Source of the DNA: Haloarcula sp. H-GB4
GTDB lineage: Archaea; Halobacteriota; Halobacteria; Halobacteriales; Haloarculaceae
Reading direction: 5' to 3'
DNA length: 64,000 bases
NCBI RefSeq assembly: GCF_030848575.1
Contig: NZ_JAVDDX010000001.1
Location: forward strand, 62,001 to 126,000
Part shown: positions 32,404-56,290 of the stretch, piece by piece
Position numbering within the stretch: the first letter of the stretch is position 1
Layout: each line of letters starts with the position of its first letter
Notes under the pieces: generated by a model
Database searches by the model: none
Seen by the model: only the letters and a program-made list of their open reading frames with translations
What the model was told of the DNA's origin: nothing
Translations under genes and position numbers: made by a program

Positions 32404-33078
32404 TCAGTCGAAGCGCTCTAGCAGGCTGGCACCTTCGACGTACACGAGTCCCTCGCGGTCGGCGTAGGTCCGTGCTGCTGCCGGGGGTAGCGCTGCACCC
32501 GTCTCGTCGTCCAACATCTCACAGACCACGGCGGCCTCGGGTTGGTCGGCCGCGGTCGCGAGCGCGAGCGCGAGTTCGGTGTGACCTTCGCGGTCGGAAA
32601 GCCCGTCCGGAGCCGCGCGGAGGAGATGGACATGGCCCGGTGACCGGAAGGCATCGCTGAACGCGTCCGGGTCCGGGTCCGCCGCGACGGCGGCCAGTTC
32701 CCGGATGGTCAGCGAGCGGTCCTCGTCGGTGATGCCGGTAAAGGTATCGCGATGGTTCACCGTCAGCGAGAACGAGGAGCGCTCGTCGTACGCGAGGTCG
32801 TGGTCGGCCGCTGTCGGATGGTCGAGGACCTCCTGCATGAAGGGGAGTTCCAGCGCCTCGGCAACGTGGTCCGAGAGCGCGACGCAGACGAGGCCCCCGG
32901 CGTCGTTTCGCATCCGAGCGACGGCTTCGGGCGTGACGGCACCGGCCGGATAGACGAGGTCCGTCTCGCCCTCGCGGTCGGCGGCGTCGTGGATCAGCAC
33001 CGGCTCGCCCCGAGCGAATGCGGCGACGGCGTCGGCCACGCTGTCGGCGTCGGCAGCGGTTTCTTCACTCCGAGACAT
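32404..33078 (-). CDS. ribB: 3,4-dihydroxy-2-butanone-4-phosphate synthase
   Basis: A 224-residue RibB that converts ribulose 5-phosphate to the four-carbon unit of riboflavin, with release of formate. The acidic substrate loop [13 protein letters not shown] lies near 38-50, followed by [10 protein letters not shown] and [10 protein letters not shown], which contains the conserved His. The length is typical of the stand-alone enzyme. The start overlaps the end of the riboflavin kinase gene by 14 bp, so the two form one riboflavin operon. Confidence 0.95.
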
Positions 33079-33763
33079 GCACGATCACCTCGTCACCGTC
33101 GGCCAGTTCTAGCACGCCACGGAGCTTCTCGGGCGCGATCACTTCGAGTTGTTCCTCGCCGTGGTGGGTCCGCTCGGGGGCGATGACGTGGGCCGGCTCG
33201 TACTCGCCGTCGCTCCCCTCTATCGAGGCAGGGTAGCAGTACGCGGGGCCGTACGTCCGCTCGTCGTCCTCCCAGCCCTCAATGGTGACCGGCTCGATAG
33301 CGCTCATCCGCGCTCGCTTGCGGACGCTCTCGGCTGTGAGTTCGAGATTGAGCGTGCCCGCGAACGGCTCGTACCCCAGCCGTTCGATGAACTGCTCCAT
33401 GTAGCCCGGGAGCGTAATGTAGTGGCGACCCTCGCCCATCCCCGAGGTGACGACGCCGGTCAGATCGACGCTGGCGTCGGATTCGAAGATCCGTCGGTAG
33501 TCGGCGTATTCGGACTGGAGGCGTCGTTCACCGTCTCCGGTCAGTTCAACCTCTTGCCCGTCACTGACGATATCACGGGCCAGCAGCCCGGCGTCTTCGA
33601 GCCGCTGGAGCCGCCGCGAGGCGGTCTGGTTCGAGGCGTCCAGTCGTTCGGCGAGATCGGCACAAGACACCTTCGTCGACTCGTCGAGCGCACCGTCGAG
33701 GGCGAGCAGTTTTAGCGTCGCCAACTCGTCCCGACCGACGCCCTGTCCCATTGATTCAGCCAT
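33065..33763 (-). CDS. CTP-dependent riboflavin kinase fused to HTH regulator (RbkR type)
   Basis: A 232-residue bifunctional protein. Residues 1-95 make a winged helix domain ([20 protein letters not shown]) and residues 100-232 the archaeal DUF120 riboflavin kinase ([17 protein letters not shown], then FAGTLNLEL), which makes FMN from riboflavin with CTP. In archaea this fusion, RbkR, is known as a regulator of riboflavin genes. It shares an operon with ribB, which fits this role. ATG 33763 lies 27 bp after TATA-like GCTTATCC (33794-33787), and a palindrome lies next to it. Confidence 0.92.
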
Positions 33764-33786: not shown

Positions 33787-33794
33787 GGATAAGC
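33787..33794 (-). promoter_or_regulatory. TATA-like box for the riboflavin kinase-ribB operon
   Basis: GCTTATCC on the minus strand is centred about 27 bp before ATG 33763, the spacing of a leaderless promoter. The palindrome at 33801-33822 covers the upstream BRE position. Confidence 0.45.
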
Positions 33795-33800
33795 ATACCG

Positions 33801-33822
33801 AAGGTGGAATGCATTCCACTTT
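33801..33822. promoter_or_regulatory. near-perfect 22-bp palindrome, putative RbkR operator
   Basis: GTGGAATGCATTCCAC at 33804-33819 is a perfect 16-bp palindrome; with the flanks it extends to 22 bp with one mismatched pair (33803/33820). It lies directly upstream of the TATA-like box of the operon that encodes an HTH-riboflavin kinase. Autoregulation by this protein is inferred from position. Confidence 0.6.
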
Positions 33823-33914
33823 TGGAACAGTAGAAAACTGGTACGGGGTTGGTAGCAGAAGCGCGTCTTACTGTTCCTGCTGGATACAATTTAAACCGCT
33901 GCCTAACACGTTCA

Positions 33915-33960: not shown

Positions 33961-34941
33961 TCAGTACTCCACAAGCGCGTCCTGCTCCCAAAAATCGCTC
34001 GACTTCTCCAGTTTCGGGACCCAGGTGTTCTCGTCCTCGGCGAGCATCGCCACGCGGGAGTCTTCGACCTCCTTCAGCACGTCATGGTCGGGGAGGTACT
34101 CGCCCATCTCCCGTGTGAACTCCCTGACTTCGCTGTGGTCGGGCATCGAGTCTCGGTCGAGACGACCACGCGAGTGGCCGACGTGCATGTACGCCTTCAT
34201 CTCGACGAAATCCGCGTCGGCCCGGTCACACATCGCCGCGTACCACTCGGGGTGGTGCATGTTGTGGCCCTTGACCAGCGTCGTCCGGATGACGGTGCGG
34301 GTGTCGTCTTTCTCGGCCAGCACGTCTAGCGTGTCGATGAGCGAGTCCCAGGCGTCGTCCTCCATCGCCTGCACCGTCGAGTCGAACGTCTGCCGGTCGG
34401 CGGCGTCGACGGAGATGTACAGCTGGGTCGGGTCACACCGCTCTAGCATCTCCGTGTTGGTCCCGTTGGAAACGAGGAACGTGGTGATGTCGCGGTCGTG
34501 GAACTCTTCGATGAGTTCCGGCAGGTGCGGATAGAGCGTGGGTTCGCCGTCCAGCGAAATGGCGACGTGGCGCGGTTCCATCGCCTGATCGAACACCTCG
34601 CGCGGGACCTCATCGTTGCCACCGAAGCCCGACAGCAGTTTTCGCTGGAGTTCCACGGAAGCGTCGGCGACTGCCGCCGGGTCGTCCCACTCCACGTCAC
34701 CGAGTTCGTAAGCGTGGCCAGCGTGGTCGCGCCAGCAGAACACGCACCGCTCGTTACATTTCACGACCGGCGTCATCTGGATGCAGCGGTGTGATTCGAT
34801 ACCGTAGAAAATGTACTTGTAACACTTCCCCTCGCCGCGGAGGGCGTTTTTTGTCCAGCCGCAGGTCTGGGCGGCCGTGTGGTTCTCGCTGTGGTAGGCC
34901 GGGTCCGAGACCTGTTTCGGACCGCCGTCGGCGTCACTCAT
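33961..34941 (-). CDS. taw1: 4-demethylwyosine synthase (Taw1/TYW1)
   Basis: A 326-residue radical SAM enzyme that condenses N1-methylguanosine 37 of tRNA-Phe with pyruvate, building the tricyclic wyosine base. The radical-SAM cysteines are C62, C66 and C69 (CNERCVFC). Three further cysteines, C27, C40 and C53, match the second Fe-S cluster of archaeal Taw1. EGEPTLYP-like LDGEPTLYPHL and the C-terminal wyosine region follow. ATG 34941 gives the usual N terminus; 34956 is also possible. The gene reads toward the riboflavin operon, about 200 bp away. Confidence 0.95.
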   Translation of the reverse strand: MSDADGGPKQVSDPAYHSENHTAAQTCGWTKNALRGEGKCYKYIFYGIESHRCIQMTPVVKCNERCVFCWRDHAGHAYELGDVEWDDPAAVADASVELQRKLLSGFGGNDEVPREVFDQAMEPRHVAISLDGEPTLYPHLPELIEEFHDRDITTFLVSNGTNTEMLERCDPTQLYISVDAADRQTFDSTVQAMEDDAWDSLIDTLDVLAEKDDTRTVIRTTLVKGHNMHHPEWYAAMCDRADADFVEMKAYMHVGHSRGRLDRDSMPDHSEVREFTREMGEYLPDHDVLKEVEDSRVAMLAEDENTWVPKLEKSSDFWEQDALVEY

Positions 34942-35020
34942 TGGACACCGATTCAACAGCCAGCGGCAAAAACTCCCGGATGTTGTGCGTCAGCAGCGAT
35001 GCTTCGGGACTGCGTTGCGC

Positions 35021-47738: not shown

Positions 47739-49748
47739 ATGGACCAACGCAAGCCGCCAGCCACGGAAGAGGGCTGGTACGCGCTGCACGATTGCCGGAG
47801 TATCGACTGGGACGCCTGGCGCGAGGCCCCCCAGCGAGTCCGCGATCGTGCACTCTCGGAGGGGATCGGCTTCCTCGACGCGTACGAAGCCGTCGAAGAC
47901 GCCGAGGAGGGGCAGACGGCGGTGTACACCGTCATGGGCCACAAGGCCGACATCATGATCCTCCATCTGCGGCCGACGATGGGCGACCTCGATGCGGCCG
48001 AGCGCCATTTCGAGCAGACGGAGTTCGCCGCCTTCACCGAGCAGGAGTTCTCCTACGTCTCCGTGACGGAGGCGTCGGGCTACACCGAGAAGTCCCGCGA
48101 GTACTTCGAGGGCGAAGTAGACGACGACTCCGGACTGGCCCAGTACATTCAGGCCCGGCTCCACCCCGACGTGCCGGACGAGGAGTTCGTCTGCTTCTAC
48201 CCGATGAGCAAGCGCCGCCAGCCCGACCAGAACTGGTACGACACATCCTTCGAGGAACGGGCAGCCCACATCAAGCGGCACGGCGACATCGGCCGTACCT
48301 ACGGCGGCGACGTGAACCAGATGATCGCCGGCTCTATCGGCTTCGACGACTGGGAGTGGGGCATCACACTCTGGAGCGACGATATGCGCCACATCAAGGA
48401 GCTGCTGACCGAGATGCGCTTTGACCCCTCGACCTCCCAGTTCGCCGAGTTTGGCCCCTTTTACGTCGGCCGGAAGTTCGATCCCGCCGAATTACCGGCT
48501 GTGATGGCCGGCCAGCGAGTCCCGACCGACGACGAGTCGGTTCCGGAGACGCCGGCGGACGTCGCGGAACACGAGCACGCGCCGGCTGATGCCAGCACGA
48601 GTCACAGCCACGACGGAGAGCCGACGACGGGCGGCGCACAGACGGGGGCACACGCCGGCGGAGACACCGACAACCACGGCGGTACCCACCCCGGGAGCGC
48701 CAGCGAGGGCGACCATCCACATTCCGAGGAGTCGTCCGACGAGGACGACTCGGGGTCGTCGAGTAGCTCAGGCGGCCGGCCGGACGTTTCAGCTGACTTC
48801 GAGGAGATAGACGACGCCGCACAGCGGCTCGGTCGGCTTGGACTGCACGAAGGCGACGCGTACGACGCTGGTGACTACGCGCTGGTGTTCCACTCCTCGG
48901 CCGATGCGGAGGACATCGTCGACGATGTGTCCGACCTCGAAAGCAACTTCGACCACTACGACCGCCACGTCCAGACGGCCGTGCGCGCCGACAGCGGTCA
49001 GACGCACCTCGTCAGCATCTGGACGGCGAAAGACGCCGCTGAGACGGCAGCCGGCTTCCTGAAGGATATCGATGGTGTCGACGAACAGTTCGGCGGCTCC
49101 CTCGGTGAGGATGCCGAGAGCGACGAGACCGTGGACAATAGCGACGCCCAGACCGCTGAATCGTCCCAGTCGATCCGCGAGACGCTCGAATCGGCGGGCG
49201 TCTACGCCGGGCAACCGCACGGCGAGGACGTGTACGCCCTCGTAGTGTACTCCGAGGCTGACGCCGAAACACTCGACGCGGAAGTCGCGGACCTCCGGAG
49301 CGCGTTCGAGCGCTACGACACGCACGTCCAGACGACGGTGTACGGCGATACCGACGGCGATCTCTCGGCCGTCGCGTCGCTGTGGGACACCGAGGACGCC
49401 GCCCAGACTGCCAGCGACTACCTCACTGACCTCCCCGGCGTCGTCGGCCGCCACGGCGAGGGCGACGGGTTCGGGACGATGGGGATGTTCTACACGGTCA
49501 AGCCAGAATACCACGAGGACTTCGTCGAGAAGTTCGACACTGTCGGTGGTCTACTCAAAGAGATGGACGGCCACCGCGAGACCTCGCTGCTGTTCAATCA
49601 CGACGACGAGAACGACATGTTCATCGCGAGCCAGTGGGACTCACAGGAGGACGCGATGGCCTTCTTCCGCTCCGACGACTTCTCGGAGACGGTCGACTGG
49701 GGTCGGGACGTGCTGGCCGACCGACCGCGGCACGTTTTCCTGGCCTGA
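47739..49748 (+). CDS. pitA: PitA-type haem protein: chlorite dismutase-like/coproheme decarboxylase domain fused to ABM domain
   Basis: A 669-residue fusion. Residues 1-250 are a chlorite dismutase/HemQ-type domain. The coproheme decarboxylase residues Tyr and Lys are kept as Y154 and K158 (FYPMSKRR), and H181 (HIKRHGDIGR) is the likely haem ligand. A His/Asp-rich linker (278-345) with about a dozen His follows. Two copies of a module of about 95 residues come next (352-448 and 478-573), each with a YDxHVQT core. The ABM domain (580-669) ends the protein. PitA is known in haloarchaea; TATA-like TTTCCTTACT lies about 27 bp before ATG 47739. Confidence 0.88.
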   Translation: MDQRKPPATEEGWYALHDCRSIDWDAWREAPQRVRDRALSEGIGFLDAYEAVEDAEEGQTAVYTVMGHKADIMILHLRPTMGDLDAAERHFEQTEFAAFTEQEFSYVSVTEASGYTEKSREYFEGEVDDDSGLAQYIQARLHPDVPDEEFVCFYPMSKRRQPDQNWYDTSFEERAAHIKRHGDIGRTYGGDVNQMIAGSIGFDDWEWGITLWSDDMRHIKELLTEMRFDPSTSQFAEFGPFYVGRKFDPAELPAVMAGQRVPTDDESVPETPADVAEHEHAPADASTSHSHDGEPTTGGAQTGAHAGGDTDNHGGTHPGSASEGDHPHSEESSDEDDSGSSSSSGGRPDVSADFEEIDDAAQRLGRLGLHEGDAYDAGDYALVFHSSADAEDIVDDVSDLESNFDHYDRHVQTAVRADSGQTHLVSIWTAKDAAETAAGFLKDIDGVDEQFGGSLGEDAESDETVDNSDAQTAESSQSIRETLESAGVYAGQPHGEDVYALVVYSEADAETLDAEVADLRSAFERYDTHVQTTVYGDTDGDLSAVASLWDTEDAAQTASDYLTDLPGVVGRHGEGDGFGTMGMFYTVKPEYHEDFVEKFDTVGGLLKEMDGHRETSLLFNHDDENDMFIASQWDSQEDAMAFFRSDDFSETVDWGRDVLADRPRHVFLA

Positions 49749-55726: not shown

Positions 55727-56290
55727 ATGGCCAAACGCCTGTTCGTCAGCGTCGACCTGGACGGGCTCGAAGACGCTATCGATAGCGTACAGGACCGCTT
55801 CGACGGGGTGTCGGGCCTTCGATTGACCGACCCCGAGCAGGCCCACGTCACGCTGAAGTTCCTCGGTGACACCGCGCCGGACCGGGTTGCTGACGTCGTC
55901 GCCGCCCTCGAAACCGCGGTCGAAGACAGCGGCGTCGCGCCGTTCGAAGCCGAGTTTGGTGGGCTCGGTGTTTTTCCGTCGCTGTCCTACATCAGCGTTG
56001 TCTGGGTCGGCGTTCGCGACGGTCAGGGCGGCGCGGAACTGACCGCGCTGCACGAAGCCGTCGAAGATCGGACCGTCGCAATCGGGTTCGAGCCGGCGGA
56101 CCACGAGTTCACGCCACACGCGACTATTGCCAGAATGGACCACGCCGGTGGCAAAGAGACAGTACAGAACGCCGTCGAGAACGACGACCCCAACGTAGGT
56201 TGCTTGCAGGTCACGGAAATCCGACTGAAGGAGAGTGTGTTCGGGCCCGACGGTCCGACGTACCGGACCGTCGAATCGGTGTCGCTGTGA
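55727..56290 (+). CDS. thpR: RNA 2',3'-cyclic phosphodiesterase ThpR
   Basis: A 187-residue 2H phosphoesterase (LigT/ThpR) that opens or joins 2',3'-cyclic RNA ends, linked to tRNA processing. The two H-x-T motifs are H40-V-T42 (AHVTLKFLGD) and H131-A-T133 (FTPHATIAR). The length matches the archaeal enzyme. ATG 55727 is the start next to KRLFVSVDL. Confidence 0.93.
   Translation: MAKRLFVSVDLDGLEDAIDSVQDRFDGVSGLRLTDPEQAHVTLKFLGDTAPDRVADVVAALETAVEDSGVAPFEAEFGGLGVFPSLSYISVVWVGVRDGQGGAELTALHEAVEDRTVAIGFEPADHEFTPHATIARMDHAGGKETVQNAVENDDPNVGCLQVTEIRLKESVFGPDGPTYRTVESVSL

Follow-up and report, generated by a model that had tools for sequence, protein, structure and literature searches.

A candidate autoregulatory operator of four half-sites at the promoter of the riboflavin kinase gene rbkR in haloarchaea

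RbkR and comparable archaeal regulators

RbkR is an already known family of archaeal regulators, to which the locus described here adds a useful refinement, namely the layout of the site in salt-loving archaea. Rodionova et al. reportedly predicted RbkR operators in 94 archaeal genomes in 2017, with operators that vary between lineages, and in the same work the DNA binding of Thermoplasma RbkR is said to be strengthened by CTP and weakened by FMN. The structures 3cta and 5trd, among them one of a DNA complex, are presumably those of RbkR TA1064 from Thermoplasma acidophilum. In domain architecture and in the link to ribB or other riboflavin genes, the family as Rodionova and colleagues drew it is the same as what we find at the present locus. 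In Haloferax, HVO_0326 is listed as rbkR and called 'bifunctional as gene regulator and enzyme' in an entry of PMC8305020, where Rodionova et al. 2017 is the work cited.

With regard to the placing of sites at archaeal promoters, a section of PMC5937170 describes for TFB-RF1 of Pyrococcus furiosus a palindromic site that lies just upstream of BRE/TATA, at a distance that is conserved, with a footprint from -47 to -70 relative to the translation start. RbkR would be alike in its way of working if it activates; the functions of the two proteins are unrelated and we claim no shared family. At the sptA promoter of Natrinema, two semi-palindromes adjoin each other upstream of the TATA box, and the inner of them covers the BRE; the outer element acts positively and the inner one negatively according to the portion of PMC6085418 that treats this promoter, and the sequences of both differ from those of the RbkR array.

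The window analysed here is the whole 64,000-nucleotide stretch of DNA from Haloarcula sp. H-GB4, and all coordinates below are positions within it unless a contig is named. The gene at 33065-33763 on the minus strand encodes a winged helix-turn-helix (HTH)/CTP-dependent riboflavin kinase with 232 amino acids; it is of RbkR type, as the first-pass annotation of this DNA had proposed. Its product scores 146.3 bits against the kinase family PF01982 (cut-off 25) and 33.3 bits against HTH_20 (cut-off 27), the latter over residues 26-62 and hence in an N-terminal winged HTH, and phmmer matches it to 3cta/5trd over residues 32-230, which takes in both HTH and kinase. The likeness to T. acidophilum TA1064 is one of protein alignment over these residues. 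Against NCBIfam NF010762 (PRK14165) the product reaches 223.2 bits, below the curated cut-off of 279, and therefore the equivalog name is not claimed for it; this cut-off is reached in 23 of 60 genomes, and all ten genomes of the order that were drawn lie below it. The ORF of ribB (32404-33078, minus strand; PF00926, and TIGR00506 with 214.9 bits against a cut-off of 177.45) starts within the end of rbkR, the two overlapping by 14 nt on the same strand, which fits the joining of rbkR and ribB in one operon.

On its own strand, rbkR is preceded by the gene of TYW1 (4-demethylwyosine synthase; 33961-34956, minus), and a TYW1-like C-terminal coding sequence seems to precede rbkR in several other families. 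Extra rbkR-like matches with 38-42% identity were seen in the haloarchaeal genomes G112, G085 and G142, two of them with an in-frame stop, and may be paralogues or decaying copies.

A conserved array at the rbkR promoter

Directly 5' of the TATA box of rbkR we found an array of four half-sites (33796-33827) that read TnnCR, YGnnA, TnnCR and YGnnA, one per 9 bp. On the minus strand, half-site 1 is TTCCA (33823-33827), half-site 2 TGGAA (33814-33818), half-site 3 TTCCA again (33805-33809) and half-site 4 CGGTA (33796-33800), which occupies the BRE position. Half-sites 1 and 2 make up an upstream dyad, TTCCA-N4-TGGAA (33814-33827), marked out by covariation of its variable positions, and half-sites 3 and 4 a downstream dyad of the same spacing, TTCCA-N4-CGGTA (33796-33809), 18 bp from the first. 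The TATA element TTAT (33789-33792, minus) begins 3 bp beyond half-site 4 in the gapless promoter alignment, fits TTWT and lies about 27 bp before the rbkR start codon ATG (33761-33763, minus), from which the transcript is probably leaderless. For comparison, a part of PMC4983044 gives the haloarchaeal BRE as CGAAA and the TATA box as TTWT, and counts 72% of Haloferax coding transcripts as leaderless.

To place this promoter among its relatives, the upstream DNA of 145 genomes of the order was read together with 26 named loci. All 145 genomes have rbkR, and in 139 of them, from 45 of 49 genera, the rbkR promoters can be aligned without gaps over 48 columns; the six promoters outside the alignment are L136, L140, L142, L149, L259 and L260, and five low-scoring ones within it (L088, L115, L127, L129 and L146) were kept in the counts. 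At least 11 of 12 key positions are retained in 133 of the 139 aligned promoters, and the ATG stands at an identical offset from the array in 126. Half-site 1 (columns 4-8) keeps the C of TnnCR in 99% of the 139, half-site 2 (columns 13-17) its G in 99% and its A in 96%, half-site 3 (columns 22-26) its T in 96% and its C in 99%, and half-site 4 (columns 31-35) its C in 99%, its G in 96% and its A in 100%, the outer half-sites being about as well conserved as the inner two; in the TATA element (columns 39-42) the first two positions are T in 99% and 98%. A matrix of half-sites 1-4 places 142 of the 145 rbkR promoters above the 99% level of a null formed by 4960 Markov sequences modelled on other promoters.

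The conserved array, the fixed offset of the ATG and the recurrence of the array before arfA and ribE in relatives, described below, together support well the reading of this site as an operator, with its anatomy corrected from that first proposed. Judged on these sequence comparisons, the four-half-site array at the rbkR-ribB promoter is very probably an autoregulatory operator used by RbkR, and we infer that RbkR is the protein that binds it. With TnnCR and YGnnA alternating every 9 bp, the dyads form a head-to-tail repeat of 18 bp, an arrangement on which RbkR dimers would probably sit side by side; dimers so bound could control the assembly of TFB and TBP on the adjoining BRE and TATA box. 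RbkR would thus combine the enzyme that makes the flavin coenzyme with a predicted regulator of the vitamin B2 genes. A vague palindrome thereby becomes a precise and testable candidate operator, and the regulator it would serve is itself the enzyme that makes the signal; the organisms concerned, Haloferax and Haloarcula, have good genetics.

Other families of the phylum and the sign of regulation

A two-domain rbkR gene is present in 47 of 50 genomes of the phylum outside the order, the three excluded genomes comprising two without a match and one with the kinase part only. The array before rbkR scores above the 99% null level in 38 of these 47 genomes, representing 13 of 15 families, and below that threshold in the other nine. 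In L348, for example, it reads TCTCA-N4-TGAGA-TGCA-TCTCA-N4-TGAGC. Half-sites 2, 3 and 4 are the strongest in these outgroup arrays and half-site 1 is weaker. In the outgroups a median of 6 nt separates the end of the array from the first in-frame start codon (no more than 25 nt in 37 of 38), and because the array lies so close to this codon the core promoter is probably upstream of it; the array would then probably cover the transcription start, which is the position of a repressor. An A/T-rich octamer stands upstream of the outgroup array in 33 of 38 cases, a weak sign as these stretches are A/T-rich anyway. Within the order itself, array half-sites likewise stand at the start codon in L259 and L260, and the other haloarchaea have the array upstream of the TATA box.

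With three half-sites upstream of the BRE and one on it, the haloarchaeal position allows either sign of regulation. We lean slightly towards RbkR being an activator in haloarchaea, a reading that we hold at an even chance, for two reasons: counted from the start codon, three of the four half-sites lie at about -42 to -64, on the upstream side of the BRE, and a binding that reportedly rises with CTP and falls with FMN would give sensible feedback for an activator. The outgroup array near the start codon suits a repressor and speaks against this lean.

Repression through the same operator is a serious contender, if short of an even chance: RbkR bound at half-sites 3 and 4 would cover the BRE and keep TFB off. 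FMN, should it suppress binding as is said of Thermoplasma, would then switch on its own synthesis, and a repressor blocking the BRE would have no use for half-sites 1 and 2 (-51 to -64), whose conservation nevertheless holds throughout. On the other side, half-site 4 does lie on the BRE, the outgroup arrays leave no room for a downstream core promoter between themselves and the start codon, L259 and L260 repeat this arrangement within the order, and, in the example given in a part of PMC6085418, semi-palindromes that overlie the BRE have a negative effect in haloarchaea. A reading that would accommodate both positions, and that we offer tentatively as rather unlikely, is that RbkR, one orthologous regulator with a single array geometry that it retained, changed sign while the array moved across the core promoter, from the start codon, the place of a repressor, where it is found in the other families and in two genomes of the order, to a place upstream of BRE and TATA box, that of an activator, in nearly all haloarchaea, the fourth half-site coming to double as the BRE. 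That the operator lies downstream of the TATA box in some lineages and upstream of it in others offers a natural experiment on how position sets the sign of an archaeal regulator; this shift and the layout are the parts worth testing, the kind of regulation itself being known.

The palindrome, the dimer unit and the regulon

The feature that had first drawn notice is a palindrome, GTGGAATGCATTCCAC, which is perfect over 16 bp (33804-33819) and extends to the 22 bp of AAGGTGGAATGCATTCCACTTT (33801-33822), 11 pairs with one mismatched, just as the first-pass annotation had it. It consists of half-sites 2 and 3 with the spacer TGCA and, on the anatomy set out above, is the middle pair of the larger four-part site; in the window it owes its perfect form to the TTCCA shared by half-sites 1 and 3 and to the TGCA spacer. 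Its location beside a TATA-like box is confirmed, with the TATA element at 33789-33792 downstream of it and half-site 4 between the two. Its placement at the BRE has to be given up, as the BRE-position element (33796-33800) lies between palindrome and TATA element; the palindrome adjoins the BRE, and only half-site 4 sits on it.

By itself, the palindrome is what chance would yield in 64 kb. The window holds three perfect palindromes of at least 16 bp where 20 first-order Markov simulations gave 1.75 on average, and two 22 bp palindromes with at most one mismatch where these simulations gave 1.55, so that its weight comes only from context, that is from position and conservation; the palindrome alone as sufficient evidence was dropped on these simulations. 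The two further perfect 16-bp palindromes of the window are ACATCGTCGACGATGT and ACGCTATCGATAGCGT, at 48913-48928 and 55773-55788. Across the 4.19 Mb genome the exact 16-mer GTGGAATGCATTCCAC occurs once, and the sole other place within two mismatches of it is GTGGAATTCATTCCAG (L002, G000:C6:47884-47899); the longer pattern TTCCANNNNTGGAATGCATTCCA, which includes the neighbouring TTCCA, is found with up to three mismatches at the rbkR locus only.

Before rbkR, the exact 16-mer is present in five of the 145 genomes of the order, all of the window's genus, and of the 26 named loci five have it, every one of them from Haloarcula; in 10 of the 139 aligned genomes the place of half-sites 2 and 3 is taken by a perfect 14-bp palindrome. 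Of the proposal that the palindrome is RbkR's own operator, what survives is a conserved operator-like sequence beside the TATA box, present also before arfA and ribE in relatives; what does not is the palindrome as the conserved unit, its exact form being confined to those five genomes of a single genus. The check that had been suggested for it, a search for the same palindrome in relatives, succeeds in these five and fails outside the genus, where the array is present, and it is therefore misleading: searching relatives for the palindrome itself would wrongly refute a real operator.

Two lines of comparison favour different pairs as the dimer unit. Covariation was assessed as complementarity between the variable two bases of each half-site in 100 distinct rows, against shuffles within families. 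Half-sites 1 and 2 covary, with 29 of 100 rows complementary against 17.8 +/- 3.2 and 4 of 5000 shuffles reaching 29, figures to be read with the knowledge that four pairs were tested and that kinship inside families is still in the statistic. No covariation signal was obtained for half-sites 2 and 3, the palindrome (17 of 100 against 14.2; 1039 of 5000 shuffles), or for half-sites 3 and 4 (9 against 7.6 in 100 rows). Covariation thus favours half-sites 1 and 2. Outgroup symmetry favours half-sites 2 and 3, for which all five arm pairs match in 19 of 38 promoters, against 8 for half-sites 1 and 2 and 10 for half-sites 3 and 4, absolute values that are inflated since the 38 rows were picked by a score rewarding the complementarity of the three pairs equally. 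The spacer yGCA between half-sites 2 and 3 is conserved in the order and in the outgroups. The idea that the palindrome merely arises where two dyads meet was dropped, half-sites 2 and 3 being the most symmetric pair in the outgroups. That the 16-bp palindrome alone is the operator, occupied by one dimer, has this outgroup symmetry and the shared spacer in its favour, but we consider it improbable in view of the comparable conservation of half-sites 1 and 4 in the order, the covariation within half-sites 1 and 2 rather than 2 and 3, and the small number of genomes with the exact form.

Beyond rbkR, which an operator-like site precedes in 139 of 145 genomes, such sites stand before arfA and ribE in relatives. 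At its 99% level the half-site 1-4 matrix picks out 10 of 31 arfA, 2 of 30 ribE and 2 of 33 ribH promoters (one of the latter marginal), and none of the 30 arfC promoters. The 145 genomes were also searched with a profile made from 68 rbkR promoters, which are themselves among the promoters refound. Among the matches listed, all those inspected that are stronger than E = 8.4e-5 are at rbkR, and 12 places lie away from it, each of which was inspected; five of these precede riboflavin genes (ribE in L301, L306 and L308, arfA in L302 and L305), and the other seven either stand elsewhere or are ambiguous.

Three genomes of one genus (g5) lack the array before rbkR, and G119 of this genus retains an RbkR HTH very like that of the window. 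Such a pairing of HTH without array would fit a genuine operator that belongs to another regulator of riboflavin genes, a reading we regard as very unlikely, since most of the genomes sampled in the phylum carry the array in front of rbkR itself and RbkR both has an HTH and is reported as a riboflavin regulator in the entry of PMC8305020. In the same genus an array-like site with a TATA box precedes the gene of a small predicted membrane protein (L303, G060:C1:2222890-2222922, minus), possibly a moved target such as a transporter.

That a chance palindrome lies beside an ordinary haloarchaeal core promoter, with no operator at all, is hardly credible: such palindromes are expected in 64 kb and CGGTA and TTAT resemble BRE and TATA box, but in 139 of 145 genomes the conserved stretch reaches more than 30 bp further upstream than the TATA box, the array is absent from arfC and nearly all ribH promoters, arfA and ribE were recovered independently, and CGKTAYGCTTAT, at the place of half-site 4 and BRE, is no common promoter, its single match in the 4.19 Mb genome being the one here. 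A generic core promoter was ruled out on this uniqueness of CGKTAYGCTTAT and on the matrix scores of the riboflavin promoters. CGGTA stands at the BRE place in most of the ribH promoters displayed, and half-site 4 may therefore be nothing but the BRE.

In the window's own genome, the array is absent from the inspected promoters of both arfA copies, ribH, arfC and ribE, and the regulon there may therefore be rbkR-ribB only. In this genome the profile search gave, apart from the rbkR site, two weak matches that both fall within other genes, and no second regulatory site. A wider regulon in this genome was rejected as unsupported, its riboflavin promoters being without the array and the two profile matches intragenic. 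The two arfA copies lie at G000:C1:576940-577656 and G000:C3:54178-54894. A sister genome (G012) likewise has second copies of arfA and ribH, one of each on the same contig, and its second ribH (L267, G012:C15) carries an array-like match of 9.0 bits on the minus strand.
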